A stretch of DNA of 26,795 bases from a virus: positions 1 to 26,795 of IMG/VR virus record IMGVR_UViG_3300044701_003173; one strand, written 5' to 3'. Below, in pieces: positions 7,855-25,475 of this stretch. A program made the translations under genes and the position numbers. Position 1 is the first letter of the stretch. Every line of letters begins with the position of its first letter. The notes under the pieces are model-generated. The model was not told the origin of the DNA. It did not search any database and saw only the letters and a program-made list of their open reading frames with translations.

Positions 7855-7870
7855 AATCCATTGTTTCCAT

Positions 7871-11229: not shown

Positions 11230-11230
11230 G

Positions 11231-11638: not shown

Positions 11639-11647
11639 AACGATGCC

Positions 11648-11676
11648 ACCGTAATGCGTTGTGTGCTGTCTGTCAA
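11648..11676 (-). promoter_or_regulatory. Promoter with ACAGCACACA in its spacer
   Basis: Read on the minus strand: -35 TTGACA (11676-11671, perfect consensus), a 17-base spacer GACAGCACACAACGCAT, and -10 TACGGT (11653-11648). The spacer holds the 10-bp motif found at the other promoters of this phage. The ATG at 11638 is about nine bases past the -10 box, so the mRNA would be leaderless or nearly so. Confidence 0.6.
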
Positions 11677-11716
11677 AATAAAAATGCATGGTGGTGCAAA
11701 CTTTTTTCTGCCCCCC

Positions 11717-12007
11717 CTATTTGCGGACCTTGGCTTCGTAGGTGCCGAGAACCTCCGCGATCCGCCCATGCGCCATGCGGATGGACGCCAGCGCCGCTTG
11801 CCGCTCGATGTCGGACGGTTCCCGCCCGCCCGCAGCGTCGAAGCAGTCGAGCCACCAGGCGAATGCCGCGCGATAAACGTCCGCCGGGACCCAGCCCAGT
11901 GAACTAGCAGCCGCGCGGGCGCGCTTTTGCGTTTCTGTTGTCACTCGGGTGTTCACAGTCACATCTCGGGCGGATCGTGTGAGCACTCTCGCTGATTGTT
12001 TCTTCAT
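11717..12007 (-). CDS. Putative ribbon-helix-helix DNA-binding protein, 96 aa
   Basis: The start is ATG 12007 (MKKQSARVLTRSARD). The N-terminal half fits an Arc/MetJ-type fold: a beta strand VTVNTRV (16-22), helix 24-37 (TETQKRARAAASSLG) and second helix 41-56 (ADVYRAAFAWWLDCF). Such proteins bind DNA as dimers with the strand in the major groove. The gene is first in the leftward block and divergent from an HTH gene. Two tandem TGTGTGC copies lie directly before its start, so it is a good candidate for the regulator that reads this motif, which is inference. A TTG at 12046 would add 13 residues. Confidence 0.6.
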   Translation of the reverse strand: MKKQSARVLTRSARDVTVNTRVTTETQKRARAAASSLGWVPADVYRAAFAWWLDCFDAAGGREPSDIERQAALASIRMAHGRIAEVLGTYEAKVRK

Positions 12008-12010
12008 AAC

Positions 12011-12030
12011 ACTGCACACAAGAGCACACA
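12011..12030 (-). promoter_or_regulatory. Tandem operator-like repeat before the RHH gene
   Basis: The minus strand reads TGTGTGCTCT followed directly by TGTGTGCAGT, two copies at a 10-bp period. Each differs by one base from the TGTGTGCTGT motif of the other promoters. It ends three bases before the ATG at 12007. A site here would block transcription or translation start of the RHH gene, as expected for autoregulation. Confidence 0.5.
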
Positions 12031-12044
12031 CCGCTCGGCGTTGC

Positions 12045-12067
12045 AAGGCCCTTCCTTGTGGGGCCTT
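12045..12067. other. Hairpin in the divergent control region
   Basis: AAGGCCC (12045-12051) and GGGCCTT (12061-12067) form a perfect 7-bp inverted repeat with a 9-base loop. No T-run follows on either strand, so a terminator is not well supported. It lies between the two divergent operons and could be a protein-binding palindrome or a transcript hairpin. Confidence 0.4.
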
Positions 12068-12093
12068 CTCCCCATTGCAAAACTTGCGGAAAG

Positions 12094-12128
12094 TTGTTGT
12101 TGCGTAGTGTGTGCTGTTACGCTACAAC
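12094..12128 (+). promoter_or_regulatory. Probable rightward early promoter with operator motif
   Basis: TTGTTG (12094-12099) and TACGCT (12118-12123) at 18-base spacing form a weak -35/-10 pair. The spacer contains TGTGTGCTGT (12108-12117). The motif is framed by an inverted repeat GCGTA (12102-12106) / TACGC (12118-12122). The HTH gene starts at 12136, about 12 bases past the -10, again giving a very short leader. The boxes are weak; the motif is what makes the site convincing. Confidence 0.4.
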
Positions 12129-12135
12129 CGCGGGC

Positions 12136-12351
12136 ATGTCGAACGCATCCCCGCTTGAATACCTGCGACCGGCCGAAGCTGCCAAACGCCTAGGGATTTC
12201 ACGCAATACGCTTAACCGCTACCTTGCCAAAGGCTTGATCCGCTGTTCGCGGCCCACCCTGCGTTGCACCCTAATCAGCACGGCCGAGCTGGCGCGCTTC
12301 TACTCTGCGACCGCGCAGCCGGTGCCGGTCTCCATGGTCCGCGCCGCCTAG
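12136..12351 (+). CDS. Small HTH protein (MerR/excisionase-like), 71 aa
   Basis: ATG 12136 (MSNASPLEYLRPAEAAKRLG) is chosen over an in-frame upstream ATG at 12058 because that lies before the promoter. Residues 9-35 (YLRPAEAAKRLGISRNTLNR plus YLAKGLI) are a typical winged HTH of the HTH_17/excisionase class, followed by a beta-wing segment (CTLISTAELARFY). Such proteins act as excisionases or as Cro-like early regulators. As first gene of the rightward operon, divergent to the RHH gene, it may be the other half of the lysis/lysogeny switch. It could also be Xis. Confidence 0.7.
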   Translation: MSNASPLEYLRPAEAAKRLGISRNTLNRYLAKGLIRCSRPTLRCTLISTAELARFYSATAQPVPVSMVRAA

Positions 12352-12354
12352 GTT

Positions 12355-13152
12355 ATGGGCGCCAATACCAAGGCAGCACCCAAGGCGAGAAAGCGCGCCA
12401 CAGGGCCCGCCAGGGCCCAAGAATCTAAGCCGGTTGCGGTGGTTGAAGAGGCCCCGACAGAGAGCCCGGCGCCCTTCAAGATGTCAGGCGCAACCGGCTT
12501 GACGATTCCAGAGGACAAGGCACAAGCCATTGCCGCCGCCCATTCTGCCGGTGTGCCGGTCACGCGCATCTGCAAGGAACTCGGCGTTGGCTATCACACG
12601 GTCGCCGCACTCATCCGCAACCGGCCCGAGCTGCTCGCCTCTGCCCGTGACATCACGGCGAATAATTGGCGAACGCTCGCCGCCCTTGGGACCGCTGAAC
12701 TTGTGGACCGGCTGCCGGAAATGAAGGACCAGGCGCTATCCGTGCTGTCGGCGATAGCAACGGAGAAAGCTGAACTGTTGAGCGGTGGCGCAACAAGCCG
12801 TGTCGAGATTATCGCGGCGCCTGCGGTGGATGAGTGGAGCGATGTTGTCGATGGTGTCGTGATTGAGTCGGTGCCTGTTTCGATAGGTAACACCGGCCGA
12901 ACGCGCGCCGCAAAAGGCCAGACGCACCCGGCCCTAGTGTCCGCACCCTGCGCAGGCGGTGAACAACCGCCTGCCTTTGACTGTTCCGACACTGTTGGAG
13001 AGGACGGTGTGTCAGTTTTTGAGCCAGTCGAGGCCCCTTTTTTGCCTCCCCCACCCCCTACCGACAGAGGGGGGGCGGGGGTTACTCCTTCTTCAAAGAC
13101 ATCACTACCCTATTCGTTATCCGACGCCGAAATTTTTCGCAAAAGCACCTAG
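12355..13152 (+). CDS. Homeodomain-like HTH protein (regulator or small-terminase-like), 265 aa
   Basis: ATG 12355 lies three bases after the previous stop. The N-terminal 40 residues are basic and disordered. Residues 50-92 (IPEDKAQAIAAAHSAGVPVT then RICKELGVGYHTVAALIRNR) form a clear helix-turn-helix. They are followed by a helical region ending in AIATEKAELLSGGATSRVEI, a pattern seen in small-terminase-like and other phage DNA-packaging or regulatory HTH proteins. The last 110 residues are low complexity, with PPPPPTDRGGAG encoded by an extreme C-run/G-run. No other small-terminase candidate is visible, but terL is 9 kb away, so a regulatory role is equally possible. Confidence 0.7.
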   Translation: MGANTKAAPKARKRATGPARAQESKPVAVVEEAPTESPAPFKMSGATGLTIPEDKAQAIAAAHSAGVPVTRICKELGVGYHTVAALIRNRPELLASARDITANNWRTLAALGTAELVDRLPEMKDQALSVLSAIATEKAELLSGGATSRVEIIAAPAVDEWSDVVDGVVIESVPVSIGNTGRTRAAKGQTHPALVSAPCAGGEQPPAFDCSDTVGEDGVSVFEPVEAPFLPPPPPTDRGGAGVTPSSKTSLPYSLSDAEIFRKST

Positions 13153-13181
13153 CCCCCAACCATTTACCCACACATTAAACC

Positions 13182-13622
13182 ATGAAAAAGTCCCTAAAAC
13201 CCTACCACAACAAGCTGAAGGCATTGTTTGCCCAGCACAGTCAATCGCATGTTGAGAGCAGTCAACCCGAGGACGAGCCGATTACAGAGGCGCCTGAGCC
13301 GATTGCTGTTGGCCCTGAGCCGACAGACCCGCCGGCGCACGACGAGAAGGCGTTGACGGAGGAGGTTGCTAGGCAGGTTGGCTGGCAGGTAGGCGATCCG
13401 GCGTCGGGCAAGGTGATGAACCGCCAGATGGTGAACAAGCGCCGTGTGTGGGCGATGGTGACCGGGTGGTCGGAGATGGTGCAGGTGTCGGTTCACGATC
13501 AGTCGGAGTGGCCGGCTGGGTCTACGATTAAGTGTGAGTATGTGCAGGCCAACAGTGACGGCCATCTAGTATTCAATAGCAAAGAACATGGTCCCAAGTG
13601 GAAGCGGAGGGGTTCACGATGA
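13182..13622 (+). CDS. Hypothetical protein, 146 aa
   Basis: ATG 13182 follows an A/C-rich leader without Shine-Dalgarno. The first 20 residues are basic (MKKSLKPYHNKLKALFAQHS). Residues 25-55 are a Glu/Pro-rich linker. The C-terminal 90 residues are a compact, probably beta-rich domain (ARQVGWQVGDPASGKVMNRQ, RRVWAMVTGWSEMVQVSVHD) ending in a basic tail. No recognised family. It overlaps the next gene by ATGA. Confidence 0.65.
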   Translation: MKKSLKPYHNKLKALFAQHSQSHVESSQPEDEPITEAPEPIAVGPEPTDPPAHDEKALTEEVARQVGWQVGDPASGKVMNRQMVNKRRVWAMVTGWSEMVQVSVHDQSEWPAGSTIKCEYVQANSDGHLVFNSKEHGPKWKRRGSR

Positions 13623-13849
13623 GCAAGGCTATTGCTTCTGTATTACTCTGTGGTCTGTATGCTGGTTGTGCTGCGTCTGGCTGGCGCGAGACGGCTCCGC
13701 ACAACACGCCCTATGCTTGGGAGTATAACGCCCCGATAGAGGGCTGGCGGTCTCTGTATGCTGGCTGGAAGCAACTGACGGCACCGGAGGGTATGATCTG
13801 GGATGAGTTGATGGGAAGCTATCAGCAGGACTTGGGGGTGGCACGATGA
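13619..13849 (+). CDS. Putative small lipoprotein or secreted protein, 76 aa
   Basis: ATG 13619 overlaps the previous stop (ATGA). The N-terminus MSKAIASVLLCGLYAGCAAS looks like a lipoprotein signal with Cys17 after LYAG, a slightly non-standard lipobox (Tyr at -3). The mature part is Trp/Tyr-rich (GWRETAPHNTPYAWEYNAPI). No family recognised. Unusual inside a replication operon; an envelope role such as exclusion is possible but not shown. Confidence 0.6.
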   Translation: MSKAIASVLLCGLYAGCAASGWRETAPHNTPYAWEYNAPIEGWRSLYAGWKQLTAPEGMIWDELMGSYQQDLGVAR

Positions 13850-14616
13850 GCGCCGAAGCGACCAACTGGGTCTGGAAGCACAGTGAGGCGTCGGGCTCGG
13901 ATCGCCTGGTGCTCTTGGCCTTGGCGGACTTCTGTAACGAGAAGGCTGAGTGCTATGCGTCGTATGGGACGCTAATGAAGAAGACGCGACTGAGCGAGGC
14001 AACCGTATATCGCGCTCTCAAATCCCTGCAACGAGCTGGCGATTTGGCGCAAGTCGCCCAAGGAGACTTTGGCAAGGGCAGCCAAGATTCCAGCGAGTGG
14101 CGCCTGCCCAAAGTCCACAACTGTCAAATTGACAGTGCATTCAATCTGACAGCTGTGAAACCTCCGACAACTGTCAAATTGACACCTGACAACTGTCAAA
14201 TTGAAGGATCAACAATACATAACAATACAGATAATAATAATAGCTCGCCTACGGCTCGCCCCCAACCGCCCCAGCTAACCGTAATCACAGAATCCAATTC
14301 GCCACCCTCTCTGGATTCAGAAGTAAAGTTGGTCCGCAAACGAGAGGACGTTCTCGGCAAGGGGTTAACCGACGAGCAATGGCTCCGGTGGCTGGGCGAG
14401 AAGAACCCCAACATCGACATCCCGGTCCTCTTCGACCGCTGCCTCGCGTGGTGCAAGGACAAGAGCAAGGTAGCCAGCCGCCGGCAGTTTATGGCCTTCG
14501 TCCGCAACGCCCAAAAGGACGTGCCCATGGCCTTTGTCCGCCGCCCATCGGCACCCTCTGGTCAGTCGGCCTTTGAGCGGGAGCTGGCTGAGATTAGGAT
14601 GGCGGTGGGAGAGTGA
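13846..14616 (+). CDS. Replication initiator (lambda O-like), winged HTH, 256 aa
   Basis: ATG 13846 overlaps the previous stop (ATGA). Residues 1-75 match the HTH_36-type N-terminal domain of phage initiators: NWVWKHSEASGSDRLVLLAL, CYASYGTLMKKTRLSEATVY, then RALKSLQRAGDLAQV. Residues 90-145 are a polar linker, and the DNA encoding it contains three iterons and an AT-rich tract. Residues 165-256 form a C-terminal helical domain (LTDEQWLRWLGEKNPNIDIP) where helicase-loading contacts usually lie. The architecture, with the origin inside the initiator gene and DnaB downstream, is that of lambda O. No separate helicase loader is recognised. Confidence 0.75.
   Translation: MSAEATNWVWKHSEASGSDRLVLLALADFCNEKAECYASYGTLMKKTRLSEATVYRALKSLQRAGDLAQVAQGDFGKGSQDSSEWRLPKVHNCQIDSAFNLTAVKPPTTVKLTPDNCQIEGSTIHNNTDNNNSSPTARPQPPQLTVITESNSPPSLDSEVKLVRKREDVLGKGLTDEQWLRWLGEKNPNIDIPVLFDRCLAWCKDKSKVASRRQFMAFVRNAQKDVPMAFVRRPSAPSGQSAFERELAEIRMAVGE
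14117..14244 (+). other. Putative replication origin inside the initiator gene
   Basis: CAACTGTCAAATTGA occurs three times, at 14118-14132, 14168-14182 and 14190-14204. The core TGTCAAATTGACA is a perfect palindrome in the first two copies; the third is a half-degenerate copy. A weaker related block (CTGACAGCTGT) lies at about 14146-14156. Directly downstream, 14208-14242 is AT-rich (ACAATACATAACAATACAG, then ATAATAATAATAG), the likely duplex-unwinding element. Iterons plus an AT-rich tract in the initiator linker is the arrangement of lambdoid origins. Confidence 0.7.
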
Positions 14617-15029
14617 CCGTCTTGGCCTCAACGGACAAGGGCGCTCACGCCGAGCTGCTGTTTTGCGCCGAGGCTGGCGCTCGGGGCTACAGCATATTCA
14701 CGCCGCTGGTGGGAAGCCCCAAGGCAGACGTTTGCCTCAAGATGGGTCAGGGTCCCTACGTTGGCATTCAGGTCAAGCGGGCTTGCGTCAGCACGCAGCG
14801 CGCCGGCCTTTACAAAATCAACACGTCGAGCCGAACGGCTGGGCGCTACAGCGCCGGCGACTTTGACGTATTGGCGGCCTATCTGCCGGACATCAACGAG
14901 TTTGTTTTCTGGCGGATAAGCGAGATCGCTCAATACAGCCAGATTAGCTACTCGCCGGAAAGGCACCGCAGCCCCGACAACTGGGAACTGCTCGACGCCC
15001 TCGCAGAACCCTCAACCGCGAACCGATAA
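14613..15029 (+). CDS. PD-(D/E)XK endonuclease-like protein, 138 aa
   Basis: GTG 14613 overlaps the previous stop (GTGA). The layout fits the PDDEXK_5 / Holliday-junction-resolvase-like group: DKGAHAELLFCAEAGARGY with Glu14, PLVGSPKADVCLKM with Asp39, and YVGIQVKRA with the Q-V-K motif ending at Lys55. The conserved-looking GLYKINTS and GDFDVLAAYLPD follow. Members are small metal-dependent nucleases of phages and mobile elements. Its substrate here is unknown; recombination or branch resolution during replication is plausible. Confidence 0.7.
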   Translation: MTVLASTDKGAHAELLFCAEAGARGYSIFTPLVGSPKADVCLKMGQGPYVGIQVKRACVSTQRAGLYKINTSSRTAGRYSAGDFDVLAAYLPDINEFVFWRISEIAQYSQISYSPERHRSPDNWELLDALAEPSTANR

Positions 15030-15098
15030 ACAATTTTTACCGCCTTACCCCTACCCCGCTAAATGTCCTACCCCCCAGCCTATAAACAACCATTTTCC

Positions 15099-15275
15099 AT
15101 GAGAACCCGTAAAACCACCAAGAAGGCCGCTGCCGTTAAGCGGAAACCCGTCACCCAGAACTCCTACACCGTTGCCGATCTCCGCGCCCACCTGCAATTA
15201 GCGGCAGGCTCGCTGATCGCCATTGACCACTGGCTAGACACCAAGGTCGAACAGATGGTGAAAAACCAGAAATGA
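15099..15275 (+). CDS. Small basic protein, 58 aa
   Basis: The start is taken as ATG 15099 after an A/C-rich leader of the type used by this phage; ATG 15063 would add 12 residues. The N-terminus is very basic (MRTRKTTKKAAAVKRKPVTQ), followed by a helical segment (TVADLRAHLQLAAGSLIAID). No family recognised. It overlaps the next gene by ATGA. Confidence 0.6.
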   Translation: MRTRKTTKKAAAVKRKPVTQNSYTVADLRAHLQLAAGSLIAIDHWLDTKVEQMVKNQK

Positions 15276-15508
15276 GCGTCGAATACGTTGTCGGCGAGGT
15301 CGGCTTTGGCGGCAATTTCAAGCCCGAGGCTGACTTCTACCGAGCGCAAACCGCGCAGTGCGGGATACGCATTGACGAGCTGGAGGCCGAGGTTGCCAAA
15401 CTCACCAAGGACCGCAATGTCCTGCGGAGGGCATTGGAACGATGCGCCGCGTTGAGCAACGAAGTTGCCGACGCAAAGCATGAGGCCCTGCTTGCCACCG
15501 CACCATGA
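15272..15508 (+). CDS. Hypothetical coiled-coil protein, 78 aa
   Basis: ATG 15272 is coupled to the previous stop (ATGA). Residues 33-65 (RIDELEAEVAKLTKDRNVLR and onward) have heptad spacing of a coiled coil. Small coiled-coil proteins of this type are common in phage early operons, with no known function. It ends in an ATGA overlap with the next gene. Confidence 0.65.
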   Translation: MSVEYVVGEVGFGGNFKPEADFYRAQTAQCGIRIDELEAEVAKLTKDRNVLRRALERCAALSNEVADAKHEALLATAP

Positions 15509-15717
15509 ACCACCGGGACGCCTGGCTCCATGAGCAGTTTGACGGGGCCACCGCCCGCAAGAACGGGGAAGTTCTATCCTTCCTGCCGGACGGCACCCCC
15601 TCGCCCGAGACGGACTATTTGCTCCGCTCGGTGCGGGAGGCGTGCGACCGATTCTGGGCCCGCCGAAGGGGCCTAAAACTTTCTCAAAAAAAGTCGTTGC
15701 CAGACAGCACACATTAG
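15505..15717 (+). CDS. Hypothetical protein, 70 aa
   Basis: ATG 15505 overlaps the previous stop (ATGA). Mixed charged helical sequence (RSVREACDRFWARRRGLKLS at about 41-60), with no recognised motif. Its 3' end overlaps the -35 box of the promoter at 15697-15725, so it closes this operon segment. Confidence 0.6.
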   Translation: MNHRDAWLHEQFDGATARKNGEVLSFLPDGTPSPETDYLLRSVREACDRFWARRRGLKLSQKKSLPDSTH

Positions 15718-15725
15718 CATACAAC
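15697..15725 (+). promoter_or_regulatory. Promoter for the helicase/recombination operon
   Basis: -35 TTGCCA (15697-15702), a 17-base spacer GACAGCACACATTAGCA, and -10 TACAAC (15720-15725). The spacer begins with the same GACAGCACACA as the leftward promoter at 11648-11676, and ACAGCACACA lies at 15704-15713. The next ATG (15740) is 14 bases past the -10. Confidence 0.6.
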
Positions 15726-15739
15726 ACGCCACAGTTGTT

Positions 15740-15844
15740 ATGGATATCTCAGAACTCACCATGTTTGCCCTCTTGTTCGGCGCGCTGGTTTTCGTCGTGG
15801 CGCTCATCAACGACGATGATGATGACGAGGGGAGGTTTTCGTGA
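15740..15844 (+). CDS. 34-aa membrane peptide before dnaB
   Basis: ATG 15740 to TGA 15842-15844, overlapping the GTG of dnaB (GTGA). Sequence: MDISELTMFALLFGALVFVV then ALINDDDDDEGRFS, one transmembrane helix and a cytoplasm-type acidic tail. It is first behind the promoter at 15697. The AGGGGAGG ribosome-binding site for dnaB lies inside its last codons. Function unknown. Confidence 0.6.
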   Translation: MDISELTMFALLFGALVFVVALINDDDDDEGRFS

Positions 15845-17238
15845 AAAACAAAAACGTCATTCCCCACGATGCGACCGCCGAGTCCTATGTCATAGGATCG
15901 CTCATGTTGCACTCGGATTTGATTGACGAGTGGGACGAGCTGAACGCCGAATACTTTTTCCTCCCCTCGCACCAAGCCGTCTTGGCGTGCATCGTCGCCA
16001 TCCGCGCCAGCGGGGGATCGCCGGACTTGCTCACCGTCACGCAGCGCCTCAACGAGCGCGGCGAGCTGGAAGGCATCGGCGGTCCCGGTGTGCTGACCGA
16101 GATGTATAGCCATGGCGGTGGCCGCGACCTTTCGTATCACATCCAGATTCTACGCGGCTACATGGCCCGCCGCCGCATCCTGGATGCCGCCGGCCGCATG
16201 ATGACCGCCGCCAAAGATCCCGCCATTGACATTGAGGAAGCCTTGGCCGACGCCGGCGAAGCCATCCTTGGCGTGGACATGAGCGGCAAGCGCGACTCGG
16301 CCGCCGCCGCCAGCGAGATGATCCACGGCGTCATCGTCGAGATGGAGCGCGCCATCGTGGAGAAGGGCAAGCCGCGCGGCATCCCGACCGGCTACCGCGA
16401 CTTTGATTACATGACCGGCGGCCTGCGTGGCGGCCAGTTGATGCTGGTCGCCGGCCGTCCCGCCATGGGCAAGAGCGCCATGCTGCTTAACTTGGCCGAC
16501 CGCATGGCCGCCAAGGGAACTACGGTCCTGCTCTACAGCCTGGAGATGAAACGCTTTGACCTCATGCAGCGCATCATCTGTGCCCGCGCCAAGGTCAGCA
16601 GCACCCGCCTGCGTAACGGTGCCGTAGGCAAGGACGAGATGCGCCGCCTCTCCATGGAAAGCATGAACTTGGCCGGCCAACCGCTTTACATAGACGACAG
16701 CGAGGCCCCGACGATCCACGAACTGCGCGCCCGCGCTCGCCGGGAAGTGCGCAAGCACGGCATCAAGGTCATCATGGTGGACTACCTTGGCCTTATCCGC
16801 GTGGCCGGCGCCACGATCAAGAGCCGCGAGAACGAAATAGGCATGGTCAGCAGAGGCTTGAAGGCCATGGCCATGGAGTTGGACATTCCGGTCATCGCCG
16901 CCGCGCAGCTTAACCGCCAGGTCGAAGGGCGCACCGACAGCCGCCCGAAGCTCTCCGACCTGCGCGACAGCGGCAGTCTGGAGCAAGACGCCGACATCGT
17001 GACCACGATTTACCGTGGCGCCTATTACGACAACGCAGAAGGCGGCGTCGAGCCGCAGGACGCCGAGTGGACCCTAGCCAAGCACCGCGAGGGCAAGACC
17101 GGCACGATGCACATGGTCTGGCATCCCGAGTGGACCCGCTTTGACACGGCGCAGATTACGCGCCTGACCGATGAAGCCCCCGTGCAGGAGGCCCGCCAGC
17201 CGGACCTGCATGAGATCAACGCCCTGCTCAATGAATAG
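15841..17238 (+). CDS. dnaB: Replicative DNA helicase, DnaB family, 465 aa
   Basis: Hexameric 5'-3' helicase that unwinds the phage replication fork. The start is GTG 15841 with GGGGAGG upstream and GTGA coupling. The N-terminal domain (residues 8-100) has the DnaB_N pattern (DATAESYVIGSLMLHSDLID), then a linker helix, then the RecA-like C-terminal domain. Walker A is GRPAMGKSA (205-213), the SLEM catalytic glutamate is Glu235, Walker B is IMVDYL (311-316), and motif H4 is DLRDSGSLEQDAD. Length is normal. It is expected to be loaded by the upstream initiator at its internal origin. No primase domain is fused and no polymerase follows, so host enzymes would complete the fork. Confidence 0.95.
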   Translation: MKNKNVIPHDATAESYVIGSLMLHSDLIDEWDELNAEYFFLPSHQAVLACIVAIRASGGSPDLLTVTQRLNERGELEGIGGPGVLTEMYSHGGGRDLSYHIQILRGYMARRRILDAAGRMMTAAKDPAIDIEEALADAGEAILGVDMSGKRDSAAAASEMIHGVIVEMERAIVEKGKPRGIPTGYRDFDYMTGGLRGGQLMLVAGRPAMGKSAMLLNLADRMAAKGTTVLLYSLEMKRFDLMQRIICARAKVSSTRLRNGAVGKDEMRRLSMESMNLAGQPLYIDDSEAPTIHELRARARREVRKHGIKVIMVDYLGLIRVAGATIKSRENEIGMVSRGLKAMAMELDIPVIAAAQLNRQVEGRTDSRPKLSDLRDSGSLEQDADIVTTIYRGAYYDNAEGGVEPQDAEWTLAKHREGKTGTMHMVWHPEWTRFDTAQITRLTDEAPVQEARQPDLHEINALLNE

Positions 17239-17557
17239 CCGCCAAAAAGGAGCCCGAGGAGAGCGCATGTTCCGCGACATGTTCCGCGAAGCAGGCTTTG
17301 AAGCCCGCCGTGGGCAGCAGTTTAGCGGCGGCACGGACAGCCCCGACGTGGTGGTCCCTGCCCTGCCCGACTTCCATTGGGAAATCAAGTTCTGCCAAGT
17401 GGTCAAAATCAAAGACTGGATGGCGCAAGCCGCCCGCGATGCTGGCGCCAAGCCCTTCCCCATCGTCGGCCACAAGCGCAACAACGAGGAACCCTTGGCC
17501 ACCCTCCGCTTCAAAGACCTTCTCACGCTCATCGCCCATTCCGATTTCGTTAGGTAA
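17231..17557 (+). CDS. Hjc-like Holliday junction resolvase (PD-(D/E)XK), 108 aa
   Basis: ATG 17231 overlaps the end of dnaB by eight bases. The sequence shows the archaeal-Hjc/phage resolvase layout: KGARGERMFRDMFREAGF with Glu11, FSGGTDSPDVVV with Asp39, and WEIKF with Glu51 and Lys53. It would cut branched DNA formed in recombination or before packaging. It follows the helicase and precedes the SSB-like and exonuclease genes, in line with a recombination-replication module. Confidence 0.8.
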   Translation: MNSRQKGARGERMFRDMFREAGFEARRGQQFSGGTDSPDVVVPALPDFHWEIKFCQVVKIKDWMAQAARDAGAKPFPIVGHKRNNEEPLATLRFKDLLTLIAHSDFVR

Positions 17558-17597
17558 CACAAACACAACACAACACAAACAAACACAAATAAGTAAC

Positions 17598-18077: not shown

Positions 18078-18079
18078 CC

Positions 18080-18268: not shown

Positions 18269-18274
18269 AACACA

Positions 18275-18305: not shown

Positions 18306-18320
18306 CTTCTCTCTAAAGTT

Positions 18321-19303: not shown

Positions 19304-19304
19304 C

Positions 19305-19673
19305 GTGAAAAAGCCCCGCCGCTTCACCGTCCGCGAAAAGACCTTCGGGTTAAATGTGGAGTTCTATTGCGGAACTCCGCAGCGGACGGCGTTGCGGCGG
19401 TGCGTGGCCATTCTCCATCTTGACGCCAATGACCCCGAGAACGCGCCAGACGACAGTGATGCCGCTTGGGCCATGTGCTACGGCAGCCAAGCCGTCGTCT
19501 GGATCGAAGCCGCCGAGGACACCGGCTCGCTCGTCCATGAGCTGTATCACGTTGTCGCCGACTTCTTGAAGCACATCACCAGCAGCGACGAGGAGACCGG
19601 CGCCTATCTCATTCAATACCTCTTCCGCGAAGCAATGCTTCGCCTCAACAAGAAACCCAAAACCCAACCATGA
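19305..19673 (+). CDS. HExxH-containing putative metallopeptidase-like protein, 122 aa
   Basis: GTG 19305, one base after the previous stop. The first half is beta-rich (KTFGLNVEFYCGTPQRTALR). Residues 75-82 read SLVHELYH, a zinc-binding HExxH in a helix, followed by Glu96/Glu97 (SSDEETGAY) that could be the third ligand. Phages carry similar small HExxH proteins of unknown role. Whether it cleaves protein is not shown; zinc binding is the safest reading. The next ATG overlaps its stop. Confidence 0.6.
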   Translation: MKKPRRFTVREKTFGLNVEFYCGTPQRTALRRCVAILHLDANDPENAPDDSDAAWAMCYGSQAVVWIEAAEDTGSLVHELYHVVADFLKHITSSDEETGAYLIQYLFREAMLRLNKKPKTQP

Positions 19674-19819
19674 AAAAAGGACTATACGCAAACATCAACG
19701 CCAAGCAGGCCCGCATCGCCGCCGGAAGCGGTGAACGCATGCGCAAGCCGGGATCAGCCGGCGCACCGACCGCGAAGGCATTCAAGCAATCAGCGAAGAC
19801 CGCCAAGACCCGCCGATAG
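19670..19819 (+). CDS. KKGLYANINAK-type conserved small phage protein, 49 aa
   Basis: ATG 19670 (ATGA overlap) to TAG 19817-19819. The whole sequence, MKKGLYANINAKQARIAAGS then GERMRKPGSAGAPTAKAFKQ, matches a very common small basic protein of environmental phages, including cyanophages and pelagiphages. No function is known. Its near-complete conservation makes the call confident despite the small size. Confidence 0.85.
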   Translation: MKKGLYANINAKQARIAAGSGERMRKPGSAGAPTAKAFKQSAKTAKTRR

Positions 19820-19820
19820 C

Positions 19821-20048
19821 ATGAAAGCCGTCTTAAAGTTCAACCTGCCCGAAGACCAGTCCGAGCACCGCCGGGCTCTTGACGGGTGGAAGTGGAGGTC
19901 TGTTGTCAGTGACATCGCTGACAAGCTCCGCAGCACGTTGAAATACGACGACGACCTCACACCGGAAACCAACGCCGCCTTAGAGAAGTTCCGCGAAGAG
20001 CTTTTCCGGCTGCTGGAAGACCACGGCCTTAACCTCTACGACGAATGA
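19821..20048 (+). CDS. Conserved small phage protein (FNLPEDxxEHRxALDGWKW type), 75 aa
   Basis: ATG 19821, one base after the previous stop. The N-terminus KAVLKFNLPEDQSEHRRALD with GWKWRSVVSDIADKLRS is a recognisable small-phage-protein pattern, often found near replication genes. The C-terminal half is helical and acidic (ALEKFREELFRLLEDHGLNL). The function is unknown. It ends in an ATGA overlap. Confidence 0.75.
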   Translation: MKAVLKFNLPEDQSEHRRALDGWKWRSVVSDIADKLRSTLKYDDDLTPETNAALEKFREELFRLLEDHGLNLYDE

Positions 20049-20299
20049 GCGCAGGCAAAGGCGATACCCCGCGTGCGGTGAATGGCGACCTTTATCGCCG
20101 CAACTACGACCGCATCTTCCGCAAGCCATATCCGGATTGGATATGCGACGAGTGCGGCCGGCTGCACGGCAAGCGCCCCGAGGGCAATCCCTACGGCGCA
20201 ACCTGGCACATCGGCGAGTGCGGCGTCTGCGGCACCGGCGGCGTTGAGGTTACGGAATGCCGGGACTTCGGCCATCTCAAAGAGGGATGGAACAAATGA
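20045..20299 (+). CDS. Zinc-ribbon conserved phage protein (MSAGKGDTPR type), 84 aa
   Basis: ATG 20045, ATGA overlap. It begins with MSAGKGDTPRAVNGDLYRRN, a signature of a small family common in environmental phages. Two CxxC pairs, CDEC (34-37) and CGVC (59-62), should bind one zinc. No function is known. It ends in an ATGA overlap with a membrane peptide. Confidence 0.8.
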   Translation: MSAGKGDTPRAVNGDLYRRNYDRIFRKPYPDWICDECGRLHGKRPEGNPYGATWHIGECGVCGTGGVEVTECRDFGHLKEGWNK

Positions 20300-20451
20300 C
20301 CAGCGCCATCCTCATCGCCCTCGTCGGCCTCATCTATTTCGCCGTGGCCATCGACCAAGCCCTCATCCAGCACAACTTCTGGAACGGAATCATCTGGTTT
20401 GGATACGCCATCGCGCAGACCGGCTTGTGGAACCTTACCGTTCGCCCCTGA
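20296..20451 (+). CDS. 51-aa membrane protein
   Basis: ATG 20296, ATGA overlap with the zinc-ribbon gene. It has two hydrophobic segments, ILIALVGLIYFAVAI (4-18) and NFWNGIIWFGYAIAQTGLW (27-45). A holin or another envelope role is possible, but no lysis gene is nearby. No family recognised. Confidence 0.6.
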   Translation: MTSAILIALVGLIYFAVAIDQALIQHNFWNGIIWFGYAIAQTGLWNLTVRP

Positions 20452-20455
20452 CCTT

Positions 20456-20614
20456 ATGACGCACCTAAGAATTACATCCCCAGCTATTGAAGCCATCGAC
20501 AAGAAAATCGCCGCACTCAAAGCCGAGCGAAAGCTGCTGGTTTCCGAGGCGGCCAGCGCCAAGGCGCAGGCGCTCTGCGCTGAGATGGCCGCCGCCAAGA
20601 AAGCGCGCAAATGA
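20456..20614 (+). CDS. Small helical protein, 52 aa
   Basis: ATG 20456, four bases after the previous stop. Residues 10-50 (AIEAIDKKIAALKAERKLLV and onward) form a likely coiled coil with a Lys/Ala-rich end. No family recognised. It ends in an ATGA overlap with a doubtful frame. Confidence 0.55.
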   Translation: MTHLRITSPAIEAIDKKIAALKAERKLLVSEAASAKAQALCAEMAAAKKARK

Positions 20615-21024
20615 ATTTCAAAGCGACAGTCAAAGGTATTGCGGCGTCAGGAGGCACTCGCCCCGATAGTCACATAACCGCCTGCCCCGTAACCGCAATA
20701 AAAGCGGGGCCTGTCGCCCATACTTTGACTGGGCAGCGTAAATATACGGATGAGCGTTTTGGACTGGGAATCCCGGTCGGCGCCACATCGAGGTCGGGAG
20801 GTCGCCGCTTAAAGCCATGCGAAGAGCTACAATCATCGCGCGCCGACCACAACCTTGGCAACCCGTGCGCTGAAAAGGTGCGGCCGCACCGTGCCCGGCA
20901 AAACAATGTCTCTGAACCGGCTTTAGTTGCCGGTGTAGGAGGCCACTGGCAGGGAACGCTAACCATCACCGGCTCCAATGTGCGTCTGGGCACTGAAATG
21001 CCGGTGGCCCTGTCTCTCTTTTGA
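20611..21024 (+). CDS. Doubtful 137-aa frame, possibly non-coding region
   Basis: The frame opens with an ATGA overlap (MNFKATVKGIAASGGTRPDS), which favours translation. The codon choice, however, is far less biased than in the neighbours and the middle has no plausible fold. The DNA holds several hairpins, for instance CCGC (20691-20694) with GCGG (20702-20705). The last 27 residues (HWQGTLTITGSNVRLGTEMP) look beta-like. Either a recently acquired gene or an RNA or regulatory segment of about 400 bases. I see no other gene here. Confidence 0.35.
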   Translation: MNFKATVKGIAASGGTRPDSHITACPVTAIKAGPVAHTLTGQRKYTDERFGLGIPVGATSRSGGRRLKPCEELQSSRADHNLGNPCAEKVRPHRARQNNVSEPALVAGVGGHWQGTLTITGSNVRLGTEMPVALSLF

Positions 21025-21025
21025 T

Positions 21026-21238
21026 ATGATCTCCTTCTTCCCGGACCGCGAGCGTGTCTACGTCAAAGGCAAGGACGTTGCCTGCCGCACGTTGCTCTAC
21101 TGCAAGAACGGCGGCGGCGAGAACGACTACGTCACCCTCATCCGCGAGGACAACGGCGAATGGTTCACCGCCCGCATCGACCAGATCGTTTCGGCGCCGA
21201 ATCCGACCTTGGATATTGAGGAATTTTCTGACGCCTAA
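21026..21238 (+). CDS. Hypothetical protein, 70 aa
   Basis: ATG 21026, two bases after the previous stop. Beta-rich small protein (ERVYVKGKDVACRTLLYCKN, YVTLIREDNGEWFTARIDQI) with an acidic tail, which could be a small SH3-like or OB-like barrel. No family recognised. Codon use returns to the pattern of the surrounding genes. Confidence 0.65.
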   Translation: MISFFPDRERVYVKGKDVACRTLLYCKNGGGENDYVTLIREDNGEWFTARIDQIVSAPNPTLDIEEFSDA

Positions 21239-21257
21239 ATAGAACACAACCGGACAC

Positions 21258-21524
21258 ATGACACCACGCGAATGGCTAGACCAACTTGCTGACGAGCAGG
21301 AATACAAAATAACCGTCATGGACGGATTCGACGATTGCATTGCCGGCATTGTCGAGCGGTTCACGGACGATCCCATCGTTTGCTACGACCGCCAGAAGGT
21401 CATCGCCTCACTCGTGGCGCAGGGCATGACGGAGGAAGAGGCCGAAGAATATTTCTCGTTTAACCAGATCGGCGCATGGGTCGGCGATTCCACCCCCTGC
21501 TTTTTGACTCACCCGCCACAATGA
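21258..21524 (+). CDS. Conserved phage protein (DDCIAGI..RF / FNQIGAWVG type), 88 aa
   Basis: ATG 21258 follows an A/C-rich leader. The segments MDGFDDCIAGIVERFTDDPI, VCYDRQKVIASLVAQGMTEE and EEYFSFNQIGAWVGDSTPCF are typical of a widespread family of small phage and prophage proteins of unknown function. It overlaps the next gene by ATGA. Confidence 0.8.
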   Translation: MTPREWLDQLADEQEYKITVMDGFDDCIAGIVERFTDDPIVCYDRQKVIASLVAQGMTEEEAEEYFSFNQIGAWVGDSTPCFLTHPPQ

Positions 21525-22000
21525 CTGACACCGACCACGCAGACCACTTGACCTTCCTCAAGCATCTGGACGCCTCGCACGATGCCGTCTGGTGTGCGGC
21601 CCGCTGGCTGCAAAACAAGGGTCATCATGTCGTGGTCACGCCGACCAGCAAGAGCAAGACACACGGCGAATGGAAGCAGCACGCGGATTCCGGCGACCTT
21701 TATTTGCAGCAGCGCATTGAGGTCAAGAAGCGCGGCATCGACTTCACCGGCGCCGCCGACTGGCCGCACGGCGACAAGTTCATCGTCTGCTCCCGCCACA
21801 GCTACGACCTCGCGCGCCCGAAGCCGTATGCCTGGATCATTCTAAACAAGGCCAAGACCCATGCCGCCATCGTCAAAGCCGAGAGCCGCGCCCGCTGGGT
21901 AGTAGAGAAGCGCACCGACAGCCGCTACCAGAATTACACGCAGGAGTTTTACTTCTGCCCGCTGGACTGTGTGACGTGGGTGAGCCTCGCAGACCAATGA
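21521..22000 (+). CDS. Conserved phage protein, possibly PD-(D/E)XK-like, 159 aa
   Basis: ATG 21521, ATGA overlap. Residues 58-72 (GDLYLQQRIEVKKRG) carry an E-V-K motif after a strand, with GDKFIVCSRHSYD following. This layout resembles restriction-endonuclease-like folds, although the first acidic residue is not obvious. The family appears in environmental phages near terminase genes. Nuclease activity is a suggestion only. The stop overlaps the start of a small frame. Confidence 0.65.
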   Translation: MTDTDHADHLTFLKHLDASHDAVWCAARWLQNKGHHVVVTPTSKSKTHGEWKQHADSGDLYLQQRIEVKKRGIDFTGAADWPHGDKFIVCSRHSYDLARPKPYAWIILNKAKTHAAIVKAESRARWVVEKRTDSRYQNYTQEFYFCPLDCVTWVSLADQ

Positions 22001-22128
22001 ACACTTTGCGCAAAGGAGAACAGGCGCCAAACGGCTTCGTTCCTAAGTGGGGAAACGCGGCGTCTGGGGCCGCCTGCCAATGCGCGGTGGCGGCACTTGG
22101 GGGTGCTGCCACCACCTTTTTGCAATGA
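21997..22128 (+). CDS. 43-aa peptide bridging to terL
   Basis: ATG 21997 overlaps the previous stop, and its TGA (22126-22128) overlaps the terL ATG; both junctions are ATGA. The product is MNTLRKGEQAPNGFVPKWGN then an Ala/Gly/Cys-rich, weakly hydrophobic tail. The DNA of its second half forms the terminator hairpin at 22086-22121, so a ribosome translating it would open the hairpin. That is compatible with a leader-peptide attenuator for terL. Confidence 0.5.
   Translation: MNTLRKGEQAPNGFVPKWGNAASGAACQCAVAALGGAATTFLQ
22086..22121 (+). terminator. Attenuator-like terminator just before terL
   Basis: GGTGGCGGCA (22086-22095) pairs with TGCTGCCACC (22104-22113), ten pairs with one G-T, around an 8-base loop. 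ACC and TTTTT (22117-22121) follow. This is a good intrinsic terminator. It lies four bases before the terL ATG and within the 43-aa frame, separating early/replication from late transcription unless it is read through or opened by ribosomes. Confidence 0.65.
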
Positions 22129-23774
22129 GCGCCAAACCCAAGTCCGCCGCCAGCCGCTTCACGCCGACTGCTCATCCGGTGATGAAGCTCCCGCCCAAGG
22201 AGACGCTGCTCGCCATGGGCCCCGAGAAGGGATGGGAGCTAATGATGAAGCGGGAGGAGCTGATCCTTAAAGAGAAGGTTGACCCCTTCCGCTACGGCTA
22301 CCGACCGAAGAACTGGAAGAAGGCGAGCGAACTCTTGGAGACCCACCGGGAACTGCTTGTCATGGGCGGCAACCGCTCGGGCAAGACAGAATGGGCCGCG
22401 AGTGAAGTGGTCCGCCGGCTTTGGGAGAAGAAGCAGTCCATCGCCTGGTGCTTCCAGACCACCGCGCCCAACAGCGTCGAGATGCAGCAGCCCCGCCTCT
22501 TCAAGTATCTCCCCAGCGAATGGCGCACGGCGCGGAAGGGAACCGTGACCAATATAACCTTCTCGGTGAAAGGCGGTTTCACAGAATCCAAGCTGGTCGC
22601 CCCCAATGGCAGCCAGTGTGTTTTTCGCAATTACTCTCAGGACATTTCCACCATTGAAGGCGGGGAAATTGACATCGCATGGTGCGATGAGTTGGTGCCC
22701 ATCGACTTTCTGGAAACCCTGCGCTTCCGGCTGCTCGACCGCAACGGCGTCCTCATCGTTACGTTCACCCCTATCGAGGGCTACAGCCCCACGGTCAAAG
22801 ACTACCTCACCGGCGCCCGCACGGTGGAAGCGGTTGACGCCGAGTTGCTGCCCAAGTTCAAGGATGACAAGGGCGAGAAGATCCTCACCGGCTATGACCA
22901 AGTGCCGGTTGTCCAGCTTGGCCGCAAGGACCGCCCGATCATTTACTTTCACACCAAGGACAACCCTTGGGCCGGCTGGGAGCGCATGCAGACCGAGCTA
23001 CGCAACGAGACCAAGGAGAAGATCCTCTGCCGTGCCTATGGCGTCCCGACGCGGTCAATCAACAACCGCTTCCCCCTCTTCAACGACCGCATCCACGTCA
23101 TCAAGCACGACTGGATTCCGACCACCGGCACCCGCTACCAATTCATCGACCCCTGCTCTGGCCGCAACTGGGCCATGATCTGGGCCATCTTTGACTCAGC
23201 CAACCGCTGCTTCATCTACCGCGAGTGGCCTTGTCCCGACGAGTATGTTGAAGGCGTCGGCTACCCCGGCATGTGGGCCGAGCCGGATGGCAAGAAGGCC
23301 GATGGTCGCCAAGGCCCCGCGCAGAAGGACTTCGGCTTTGGTCTTTCCCGCTATGTCGAAGAGATCCGCAACGTAGAGAACGGCGAGAAGATATTTGAGC
23401 GGTGGATGGACAGCCGCTACGGCAACGCGCAGACCTTGGCCAAGGAACGCCCGACCACGTTGATCGAGGAGATGAGCGAACTAGGCATGGACTTCACAGC
23501 CACCCCCGGCGACACGATTGATGAAGGCGTGCAGATGATTAACTCCTGGCTGCACTACGACCGCGACAAGCCGATCAGCGCGCTCAACCAGCCCAAGCTC
23601 TACATCAGCGAGAAGTGCAAGAATGTCATATACTGCCTCAAGGAATGGACAGGCCAAGACGGGGCCAAGGGTAGCTCAAAAGACTTCCCTGATCTGGTTC
23701 GCTACTTGTGCCTTTCCGGCGTCAACAACGTCGAGGGCGACATCCTCATGGCGCGTGGAGGCGGGAGTTACTGA
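22125..23774 (+). CDS. terL: Terminase large subunit, 549 aa
   Basis: ATPase-nuclease motor that packages DNA into the prohead. ATG 22125 (MSAKPKSAASRFTP) is chosen over the in-frame 22047, which lies in the upstream peptide. The N-terminal ATPase has Walker A GGNRSGKT (81-88), Walker B EIDIAWCDE (181-189) and the coupling motif TFTP (213-216). The C-terminal RNase-H-like nuclease has Asp342 (YQFIDPCSGRNWA), a second acidic residue in RWMDSRYGN and a third near FPDLVRYL. Length is normal. No small terminase is adjacent; the HTH protein at 12355 is a distant candidate. Confidence 0.95.
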   Translation: MSAKPKSAASRFTPTAHPVMKLPPKETLLAMGPEKGWELMMKREELILKEKVDPFRYGYRPKNWKKASELLETHRELLVMGGNRSGKTEWAASEVVRRLWEKKQSIAWCFQTTAPNSVEMQQPRLFKYLPSEWRTARKGTVTNITFSVKGGFTESKLVAPNGSQCVFRNYSQDISTIEGGEIDIAWCDELVPIDFLETLRFRLLDRNGVLIVTFTPIEGYSPTVKDYLTGARTVEAVDAELLPKFKDDKGEKILTGYDQVPVVQLGRKDRPIIYFHTKDNPWAGWERMQTELRNETKEKILCRAYGVPTRSINNRFPLFNDRIHVIKHDWIPTTGTRYQFIDPCSGRNWAMIWAIFDSANRCFIYREWPCPDEYVEGVGYPGMWAEPDGKKADGRQGPAQKDFGFGLSRYVEEIRNVENGEKIFERWMDSRYGNAQTLAKERPTTLIEEMSELGMDFTATPGDTIDEGVQMINSWLHYDRDKPISALNQPKLYISEKCKNVIYCLKEWTGQDGAKGSSKDFPDLVRYLCLSGVNNVEGDILMARGGGSY

Positions 23775-23777
23775 TTT

Positions 23778-24032
23778 ATGAAAACCGACAAAGCCAAGAT
23801 GGCGTGCAACAAACCCAAGCGCACGCCCAGCCACCCAACCAAGTCCCACGTTGTCAAAGCCTGCGGTGATGCCCTGCCGGTCGGCGGCAAACTAATCCGC
23901 TTCGGCCAACAAGGCGTCAAGGGCTCGCCGGCCGGCAGCCCGCGCAACAAGTCATTCAAGGCGAGACACGCCAAGAACATTGCCAAGGGCAAGGGCAGCG
24001 CCGCGTATTGGGCCGATAAGGTTAAGTGGTGA
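23778..24032 (+). CDS. Conserved small basic phage protein (KPKRTPSHPTKSHVVKAC type), 84 aa
   Basis: ATG 23778, three bases after the terL stop. The sequence PKRTPSHPTKSHVVKACG, the IRFGQQGVKGSPAG segment and the end FKARHAKNIAKGKGSAAYWA match a highly conserved protein of environmental podo- and siphoviruses, usually located next to terminase or structural genes. It is strongly basic, so DNA binding is likely, but its role is unknown. The next gene starts inside its stop (GTGA). Confidence 0.85.
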   Translation: MKTDKAKMACNKPKRTPSHPTKSHVVKACGDALPVGGKLIRFGQQGVKGSPAGSPRNKSFKARHAKNIAKGKGSAAYWADKVKW

Positions 24033-24232
24033 GCACGAAAGAATACGTCTGGAGTGAAATGACGCGCAAGAATCCACGCCTGCTGGACAACCCGCATTTC
24101 ACCACGGCCAGCGTCCGCAAGTTCTTCGACGCGGTCTACGAAGCCGGTTGGAATGCTGGCTACAAGTCATCGCAAGCCATGCCCCAAGCCGGTGCCGATC
24201 TCTTCACCACGTTCTTTGGGGGAAAGCGATGA
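24029..24232 (+). CDS. Hypothetical protein, 67 aa
   Basis: GTG 24029 overlaps the previous stop (GTGA); GTG 24026 is equally possible. The product is helical (SVRKFFDAVYEAGWNAGYKS) with a Gly/Phe C-terminus. No family recognised. It ends in an ATGA overlap. Confidence 0.6.
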   Translation: MSTKEYVWSEMTRKNPRLLDNPHFTTASVRKFFDAVYEAGWNAGYKSSQAMPQAGADLFTTFFGGKR

Positions 24233-24432
24233 CCACCCTCGCCCGAAACCAACCGCCGCCACCAGACAACTGGAAGGTCGCGCCCGGCGGCCACCCGCTA
24301 TGCCAGGTCTGCGAGAAGCCCCTCACCGTCAACTGGCTCCGCGACCCGCAGCTCGGCCCCTGCTGCATGGACTGTGCCCCGCACGTCATCAGCGCGGACA
24401 AGCTGCTCTACTTCATGCGAATTGCGCAATAG
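24229..24432 (+). CDS. Small zinc-finger-like protein, 67 aa
   Basis: ATG 24229, ATGA overlap. Two Cys pairs, CQVC (25-28) and CMDC (46-49), with LTVNWLRDPQLGPC between them, should form a zinc ribbon or treble-clef-like knuckle. The N-terminus has a PPPPDNW stretch. Function unknown; similar small zinc proteins are common in phage genomes. Confidence 0.65.
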   Translation: MTTLARNQPPPPDNWKVAPGGHPLCQVCEKPLTVNWLRDPQLGPCCMDCAPHVISADKLLYFMRIAQ

Positions 24433-24465
24433 CTCAATCCACACTTGAACTACTAACCAAACACT

Positions 24466-24762
24466 ATGCACCTCACAATTAGCACACGCCCTAAACATGT
24501 CGTCATGGACATGTATAAAAACCCCGAAGATTTCGACACGTCCGCCGCCCTAGCCTTCTCCCGCGAGCAAGCGCCCGCCGGCGCCCTCGCTATTATGCTG
24601 GCCATCCAGGACCGCATTGCCGACGCCTCGCTGCTGGTCAGCAACATGGCCACCGCCAAAGACCCCGGCTTTCTGGCCCATGCAGCCGGCCAGCTCAACG
24701 CCCTCCAAGAACTCTGGGACGACCTTGAGCAGCGCCGCGCCGAGGCGAGCAAGTTGTCTTAA
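24466..24762 (+). CDS. Hypothetical protein, 98 aa
   Basis: ATG 24466 follows an A/C-rich leader (CCAAACACTATG). It is mainly helical (ALAFSREQAPAGALAIMLAI, AHAAGQLNALQELWDDLEQR) and acidic. No recognised family. It occupies the position between terminase and scaffold where a portal gene is normally found, but it is far too short to be one. Confidence 0.6.
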   Translation: MHLTISTRPKHVVMDMYKNPEDFDTSAALAFSREQAPAGALAIMLAIQDRIADASLLVSNMATAKDPGFLAHAAGQLNALQELWDDLEQRRAEASKLS

Positions 24763-24772
24763 GTCGTCAACT

Positions 24773-24889
24773 GTGGCGAATTACTGCAAAGCATCACCAA
24801 TGATGCGTAAGGGTGGACGCTTTGCCACAAAGCCTCACCCGCGCGACTGTTGCAGGGACCGCAATTTGTGCCAATGGCCGACTTGCTAA
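24773..24889 (+). CDS. Possible Cys-rich 38-aa protein
   Basis: GTG 24773 to TAA; ATG 24800 is an alternative inner start. The product (VANYCKASPMMRKGGRFATK, then PHPRDCCRDRNLCQWPTC) has five Cys within 38 residues and is basic, so it could bind a metal. No Shine-Dalgarno or family support; it may be chance. Confidence 0.35.
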   Translation: MANYCKASPMMRKGGRFATKPHPRDCCRDRNLCQWPTC

Positions 24890-24916
24890 GATGGCGTTGG
24901 CAACTACGCTAAACCC

Positions 24917-25105
24917 ATGAACACCGCAGTCTTGATCTTCGGCCTGTGCATCTTGGCCCCAGTCGCGGTCCTATTCCCTTGGCTCACTTGGCAAAACTGG
25001 TCGCAGTTCGACCGATTCGACAAGTTCGCTTGGCCCTGCATAGTGCTTATGATCTTCACCGCCGGCTTCTTCACCGCCCAAAAGCTCTTGCGGCTGCACT
25101 TGTAG
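24917..25105 (+). CDS. 62-aa membrane protein
   Basis: ATG 24917 follows CTAAACCC. It has two transmembrane segments, VLIFGLCILAPVAVLFPWLT (5-24) and AWPCIVLMIFTAGFF (38-52), with a charged loop (QFDRFDKF) between them. Size and topology are holin-like, but no endolysin lies in the window, so the role is open. Confidence 0.6.
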   Translation: MNTAVLIFGLCILAPVAVLFPWLTWQNWSQFDRFDKFAWPCIVLMIFTAGFFTAQKLLRLHL

Positions 25106-25446
25106 CGGCGGCCTGTGACCGCCAGAGCGTTCCCGCTCGGGTATAAAAAGCCGCTCGCCCGCCCGCTTTATACCATGTCGGGTATAGGCGACATTACCGC
25201 CCGGTAACGTCTTACGAACTGCACAAATTCTGACGCGCCGCTCAATGATTTGTGTAGCTACCTGTCGCATTCTGCCAGTTGGTATCATCAAACGATACTA
25301 TCGCTAGGACTTCACACCGGCGTGAACTAGCCGCAGTTACGCCATTCCCGCCAAATGTCCCTCCAGAACATTTGCGCATAGACACATAGAACGTGTCATT
25401 CTGCATGCGCGAATAGCGAATGTATTTACATTGTAAAACATTTCGC
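25106..25446. other. Non-coding region with several hairpins
   Basis: No supportable gene. Inverted repeats: GGCGG 25107-25111 with CCGCC 25119-25123; GAGCG 25125-25129 with CGCTC 25134-25138; GGTATAAA 25140-25147 with TTTATACC 25167-25174, the last sequence recurring as GGTATA near 25181. Others are GTATC/GATAC near 25282-25298, and GCGAATGT near 25417-25424 facing ACATTTCGC near 25438-25446. This could hold a terminator, a packaging (pac/cos) site or a structured RNA. No tRNA fold is seen. Confidence 0.5.
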
Positions 25447-25475
25447 TTGCTGTGTGTGCTGTTGTGTGCTATTAG
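25447..25475 (+). promoter_or_regulatory. Promoter for scaffold and capsid genes
   Basis: -35 TTGCTG (25447-25452), a 17-base spacer and -10 TATTAG (25470-25475). The spacer is almost filled by two tandem copies of the operator-like motif at a 10-bp period: TGTGTGCTGT 25453-25462 and TGTGTGCTAT 25463-25472. The leader to ATG 25566 is about 85 bases, with a GAGGC/GCCTC hairpin (25487-25501) and GAGGGG before TTTTT upstream of the start. Confidence 0.6.

Follow-up and report, generated by a model that had tools for sequence, protein, structure and literature searches.

The 26,795-base phage fragment IMGVR_UViG_3300044701_003173 from IMG/VR (hereafter the window, that is, the whole stretch that was analysed, whose positions are used throughout) carries a short motif, TGTGTGCTGT, in the promoters of accessory, early, replication and head genes. 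The 10-mer was found in four exact copies, at 11660 (plus strand), 12108 (plus strand), 15704 (minus strand) and 25453 (plus strand), and nowhere else in the window, which agreed with the coordinates given in the first-pass annotation. Its core was the heptad TGTGTGC, or GCACACA on the other strand, and its best form was TGTGTGCkGT. Five promoters of the window contained the heptad in the spacer between the -35 and -10 elements, four of them with the exact 10-mer and the promoter of a gene for a ribbon-helix-helix (RHH)-like protein with a pair of near-copies. The leftward accessory promoter (11648..11676, minus strand; TTGACA-17-TACGGT) lies just behind this RHH gene, with GCACACA at spacer position 5 and the 10-mer at 11660-11669. 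The first gene after it, gene A (11231..11638, minus strand), encodes a protein of 135 amino acids for which no family was found, and because tblastn found no relative of gene A in the loci that were fetched, the first gene behind the leftward promoter differs in the relatives. The RHH-like protein itself (96 amino acids; 11717..12007, minus strand), the candidate regulator, has a predicted DNA-contact strand TVNTRV; its promoter (12011..12046, minus strand; TTGCAA-17-TCTTGT) has TGTGTGC abutting the -10 element and tandem near-copies at 12011-12020 and 12021-12030. Divergent from it is the gene of a helix-turn-helix (HTH) protein of 71 amino acids (12136..12351, plus strand), an HTH_17/excisionase-like protein (PF12728, E 3e-9; phrog_66, E 2.1e-6), which heads the rightward early operon behind the early, or HTH, promoter (12100..12128, plus strand; TTGCGT-17-TACAAC; 10-mer at 12108-12117); an HTH_23 protein is encoded at 12355-13152. 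The DnaB-operon promoter (15697..15725, plus strand; TTGCCA-17-TACAAC), with GCACACA at spacer position 5, precedes a small open reading frame at 15740-15844 and the gene of a DnaB-like replicative helicase (15841..17238, plus strand; phrog_19, E 1e-100). The scaffold/head promoter (25447..25475, plus strand; TTGCTG-17-TATTAG), whose spacer is filled by two direct heptads at 25453-25459 and 25463-25469, precedes the gene of a head scaffolding-like protein (25566..26603, plus strand; phrog_8865, E 9.3e-5). The first-pass annotation had placed three motif copies in 17-base spacers, at 11648-11676, 15697-15725 and 25447-25475; these placements held, and the number was too low, since the fourth copy also lies in such a spacer (12100-12128). 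The tandem near-copies that it had described at 12011-12030 and 25453-25472 were present as well. The starts at 11638, 12007, 12136 and 15740 fall 7-14 bp past the -10 elements, so the mRNAs would be leaderless or have very short leaders, if the promoters are real.

The recurrence of TGTGTGCTGT exceeds chance. Its reversed pattern had no copy in the window, and among 200 dinucleotide shuffles the motif had no copy in 189, one copy in 10 and two copies in 1, and never more than two. Since 22 10-mers of the window reached at least four copies, compared with 0-6 in the shuffles, the count of four is not unique by itself. When two mismatches were allowed, the window contained 39 matches against 22.8 expected, many of which were CA-rich leader sequences. 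On the mRNA strand, many leaders of start codons are CA-rich (e.g., AAGGAGACACACAATG), and the near-copies at 10255-11148 and 11622-11633 appear to belong to this leader type. Across 11 contigs, 81 of the 115 matches to the heptad were in non-coding DNA (1.83 vs 0.10 per kb, based on gene calls from a simple purpose-made caller). This enrichment was dropped as sole evidence because the CA-rich leaders raise the counts of ACACACA and CACACAA higher, and both words outnumber GCACACA in non-coding DNA. The abundance of these two words would also be expected if the motif were mere CA/TG-rich low complexity of phage non-coding DNA. The first base of NCACACA and its strand, counted near to and far from starts in ten contigs, separated the heptad from the leaders. 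At up to 20 bp from a start, NCACACA was found in the sense direction only, with A in 63, G in 18, C in 3 and T in 4 cases, whereas farther from starts the G form made up 23 of 49 sense matches, 17 of 25 antisense matches and 13 of 26 matches between divergent genes. Thus the A form prevails near starts, in sense only, and away from them the G form equals or exceeds it, in both orientations; the G form is also fixed in position and conserved. An origin in low complexity, already made unlikely by the leader comparison and the spacer alignment, is hardly credible.

Relatives were fetched from IMG/VR with four proteins of the window plus an alignment of the RHH protein (their contigs are labelled G or L below), and the near-duplicate contigs L011, L012, L019 and L061 were excluded from the counts of DnaB, HTH and RHH promoters. 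In 16 gap-free sequences of the DnaB-operon promoter with a 17-bp spacer, the heptad columns were 97.3% identical, compared with 68.8 and 66.7% for the other spacer columns, 92.7% for the -35 element, 75.2% for the upstream flank and 77.7% for the downstream flank. The identity of 100% in the -10 element is uninformative because the search was anchored on it (TACAA, together with T-T/A-G of the -35 element), and L018, which has an 18-bp spacer and a changed site, was left out. The DnaB proteins of 14 of the 16 aligned sources were about 49-98% identical to that of the window, L186 and L187 being outside this figure. Across 17 contigs, the heptad of the DnaB promoter was exact in 13, GCACACG in 3 and GGGCACG in L018. 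At the leftward promoter behind the RHH gene, 14 of 16 sources had the heptad in exact form, in a search that itself required the heptad within one mismatch; L018 had one mismatch, no such heptad was reported for L017, and the distance between the leftward and RHH promoters was always 350-460 bp where both were listed. The scaffold promoter was counted in 41 of 59 loci, most of the others stopping short of the upstream region (L073 and L081 were also omitted, though this reason did not apply to them). At least one exact heptad was present in 33 of the 41 and none in 7, three of which were one mismatch away, and the promoter of L054, unparsed in the count, shows two heptads on reading. The heptad was exact in 7 of 13 HTH promoters (1 with one mismatch, 4 worse, 1 unparsed) and in 4 of 13 RHH promoters (5 with one mismatch, 2 worse, 2 unparsed). 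Among distinct spacers, exact heptads were carried by 11 of 14 at the DnaB promoter, 6 of 11 at the HTH promoter, 4 of 11 at the RHH promoter and 8 of 11 at the scaffold promoter, while 2000 shuffles of each distinct spacer gave expectations of 0.04, 0.06, 0.08 and 0.06, respectively.

The place of the heptad was fixed, but its direction flipped between clades at the HTH, leftward and scaffold promoters. The HTH promoter contained TGTGTGC at spacer position 3 in L010, L015, L017 and L020, and GCACACA at position 5 in L028, L030 and L033. The leftward promoter contained GCACACA in the window, G001-G004, G007, G009, L031 and L034, and TGTGTGC near the -35 element in G008, G010, L028, L186 and L187. 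As far as the sequences can tell, a fixed place together with a free direction fits an operator bound by a protein. It could be supposed instead that the heptad is a host promoter element required by RNA polymerase, for example a TGTGn extended -10 element, as TGTGTGC abuts a poor -10 element at the scaffold and RHH promoters and L018 keeps TGTGTGC at its RHH promoter. In the window, however, TGTG stands one base before the -10 element only at these two promoters and not at the DnaB, HTH and leftward promoters, where the heptad is in mid-spacer and, at the latter two, occurs in either orientation; the printed integrase promoters also have no heptad. Since both directions occur, they are explained by a protein that accepts either one and not by an extended -10 or a transcribed element, and we regard a host promoter element as improbable.

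The heptads were also paired in different ways. The scaffold promoters contained a perfect inverted pair, GCACACA-N-TGTGTGC, around one base in 19 of 41 contigs and a perfect direct pair with 3 bp between the heptads in 11 of 41, and the DnaB, HTH and leftward promoters had mostly a single exact heptad, so that the direct repeat is not the defining feature of the operator for which it had been taken in the first-pass annotation. A palindrome as the general form of the site was rejected too: among 17 relatives it was found once per genome in 6, with no copy at 1-2 mismatches reported. A scan of the viral collection for the palindrome returned 66 stretches. Directly before the start codon, a full tandem, GCACACAACCGCACACA, was observed in G005, G007, G008, G009, G010 and G016 (e.g., L163:19663-19679); its nearer heptad ends -1 to 5 bp from the start codon, and it may be an operator, a leader or both.

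An RHH homologue divergent from the HTH gene was found in the window and in 12 other contigs examined, and L187 also has an RHH homologue, its heptad promoter reading the opposite way. Pfam RHH_1 was matched by 3 of 13 homologues (best E 1.2e-5). The predicted structure of the RHH protein contained helices at residues 24-37 and 41-58 plus a C-terminal helix, and the 14 matches listed by a fold search included RHH domains of PutA, VapB and MazE6, though weakly (E 4.9-6.9). In the predicted contact strand, NTR was kept in 14 of 15 homologues although identity to the window falls to 36%; its residues T, N and R we take to be DNA contacts by analogy with Arc. The lineages with NTR, including those at 36-38% identity, had the heptad or a one-base variant of it at the DnaB promoter. 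In L018, the protein has HLR (IVHLRV) in place of NTR. The DnaB (GGGCACGTTTGTAA) and HTH (TGGCACGCTTGTAA) promoters of L018 share GGCACGyTTGTAA, a word present at these two places only in L018, and its leftward (GCCACGTTGTAG) and scaffold (TTACGTTGTGTTG) promoters resemble the new word more loosely.

The same operator might have another binder, namely the HTH_17/excisionase-like protein, the HTH_23 protein or a host regulator. Both phage proteins are conserved beside the RHH gene, the HTH promoter carries the site, and the helix region of the L018 HTH protein differs as well. However, a far larger difference in the HTH helix separates the window clade from the L028 clade, although both have the heptad; the HTH_23 protein shows hardly any change between L018 and L029, whose site is the usual one; and a host factor would leave the changed sites of L018 unexplained. 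A search with the HTH alignment returned 16 loci, 15 of them in contigs already found with the HTH or RHH gene and one in a further contig (L204), and weak HTH matches in L035-L037 had no RHH match and were set aside. Both the 96-residue RHH and the 71-residue HTH protein had been put forward earlier as binders; we infer that the former is the better candidate of the two, with the HTH protein a possible one, and we consider binders other than the RHH protein rather unlikely taken together.

Our results point, with a probability that we put slightly above even, to the heptad as the operator of a single regulator that the phage encodes, most probably the 96-residue RHH-like protein, which would repress these promoters. 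A single-regulator network over accessory, early, replication and head operons had been suggested before, and it was strengthened here, as five promoters carry the heptad and the relatives keep it. RHH dimers would bind the heptad in either direction between the -35 and -10 elements, and a bound dimer would shut out host RNA polymerase. Two heptads that lie 10 bp apart in direct order, or around one base in inverted order, would be bound by two dimers together. Because a protein bound in the spacer would block RNA polymerase, repression is more likely than activation. The targets of repression by the RHH protein would thereby be its own promoter and those of the leftward accessory, rightward early, replication and head genes, and the near integrase promoter would be spared. 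A prophage repressor would be expected to be wired in this way, the divergent HTH protein then standing where Cro or an excisionase would.

Several observations weigh against this interpretation. A plain sigma-70 scan of 6800-26795 gave 6 sites, against an expectation of 5.4, and did not pick up any of the five motif promoters; the five sites were taken as promoters because they are conserved, not by consensus. The spacers share descent, so that their excess of heptads over the shuffles bears on composition only and the counts are not independent. At the HTH promoter, L029, L031 and L034 have 2-3 mismatches to the heptad, L032 shows no heptad by eye, and the RHH promoters of L015 (by eye) and L016 have none. 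The RHH protein of the window itself matched no Pfam model, and its strand region was predicted with low confidence, residues 10-19 having a predicted local distance difference test score below 50 and not being modelled as a strand, which may be expectable for a single chain of a dimer. Nothing significant was found by a sequence search of solved structures (designed protein 0.027, VapB26 0.25, RelB 1.2) or by the fold search (best E 4.9, PutA). The RHH promoter of L018 retains TGTGTGC despite the changed protein, and the helix region of the L018 HTH protein likewise departs from the L028 type, so the evidence from this lineage does not point to the RHH protein alone. Moreover, the integrase gene of G007-G010 is preceded, at a distance of 186-249 bp, by two exact heptads, and L187 has a similar pair; they are outside the near promoter and are not explained by the proposed repression, and the integrase may not be exempt from control in these contigs.

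The integrase region differed from the others. The first-pass annotation had assigned the motif to every convincing promoter, which did not hold for the near promoter of the integrase (open reading frame at 6661-7899, minus strand; phrog_1, E 7.7e-14; exact start uncertain). This promoter region (7853..7930, minus strand) contained no heptad, and no exact one was found in the printed stretches of 12 integrase upstream regions. The region contains copies of TTGACAC/TTTTGACAC; several copies of TTGACAC (often TTTTGACAC) about 11-14 bp apart were observed at 7853-7930 of the window and in L006-L009, L017, L018, L029, L030, L032-L034 and L168, and could represent a second operator system. The heptad pairs upstream of the integrase in the other contigs are 32 bp apart (G007:12994-13032, G008:5780-5818, G009:18892-18930, G010:1945-1983 and L187:9069-9107) and adjoin an inverted repeat (for L187, TTACAGAGTAATTCTGTAA); they possibly mark an attachment or integrase control region. 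Beside the integrase gene, the plus strand at 7968-8005 resembles by eye the 5' half of an arginine tRNA and is possibly an attachment site; ARAGORN detected no tRNA in the window, and no Rfam family reached the gathering score. The sequence GTGATGGCCG occurs in 8 exact copies at 6619-9665, all on the minus strand and often at gene junctions, with the TGA stop overlapping ATG GCC GCC, and TGATGGCCGCC occurs in ten other contigs with one to seven copies each; GTGATGGCCG resembles a junction sequence that is conserved among accessory cassettes.

The presence of an integrase suggests a temperate phage. No Pfam family of the CI/S24 repressor type was found at E 0.01 among 33 further proteins of the window, itself a fragment, and 15 of G001, which were part of the open reading frames, and the RHH protein is therefore the leading candidate for a lysogeny repressor. 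In 50,697 phage records, tblastn at E 1 gave no match to the RHH protein. Judged by terminase, the closest named phage was C75C1 (33% identity), and scans of genome contigs with the terminase and the scaffold alignment found no relative. We tentatively propose, at somewhat less than even probability, that in an uncultivated group of temperate phages the part of a CI-like lysogeny repressor is played, throughout the genome, by an RHH protein. Its 7-bp operator code would be independent of orientation: from clade to clade, the copies would be turned round, paired in direct order or paired as palindromes, and they would change together with the contact strand of the protein. Regulatory predictions that can be tested are rare from uncultivated phages; here conservation names a candidate regulator, a site, five target promoters and one differing promoter, and a relative with altered sites, L018, provides a natural control. 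If the proposal is true, an RHH-based genome-wide prophage switch would join the known HTH-based ones, and operator sites would be shown to flip orientation in evolution.

Literature searches on RHH phage repressors, which covered few subscription journals, showed no title on a comparable genome-wide RHH system among the papers listed; one listed title named MrpR as the master repressor of SPbeta. Arc and Mnt of phage P22 are small phage RHH repressors with operators near promoter elements, and their known action is confined to a single local control region (immI), whereas the operators proposed here are spread over the operons of the genome. The repressor of mycobacteriophages L5 and Bxb1 is not known to be an RHH protein. 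In a report on these cluster A phages, their repressor uses many dispersed, asymmetric stoperators that diverge with the repressor among relatives, most of them outside promoters and mainly in one orientation (PMC6550527). The window and its relatives resemble that system in the proposed single phage repressor, the dispersed asymmetric sites and a motif that diverges alongside the repressor, and differ from it in that the conserved sites are in promoter spacers and in both orientations. The sites were thus neither mostly outside promoters nor in one orientation; the copies near starts all read in the sense direction, but they were mainly the A form of the CA-rich leaders. A direct-repeat operator, which the first-pass annotation had not recognised from any known system, has a counterpart in omega/ParB of pSM19035, an RHH protein that binds 7-bp heptads in either direct or inverted order and prefers two repeats to one, with sites in a number of promoter regions, that of its own gene among them (PMC9499535). 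Like omega/ParB, the system proposed here has a putative RHH-type protein, 7-bp sites in direct (11 of 41 scaffold promoters) and inverted (19 of 41) order, and sites in several promoters, the candidate's own being one of these. Unlike the contiguous heptads of omega/ParB, the heptads here are single or are separated by 3 bp (direct, 10 bp apart) or 1 bp (inverted, 8 bp apart) and have another site sequence, and they belong to a phage instead of a plasmid.

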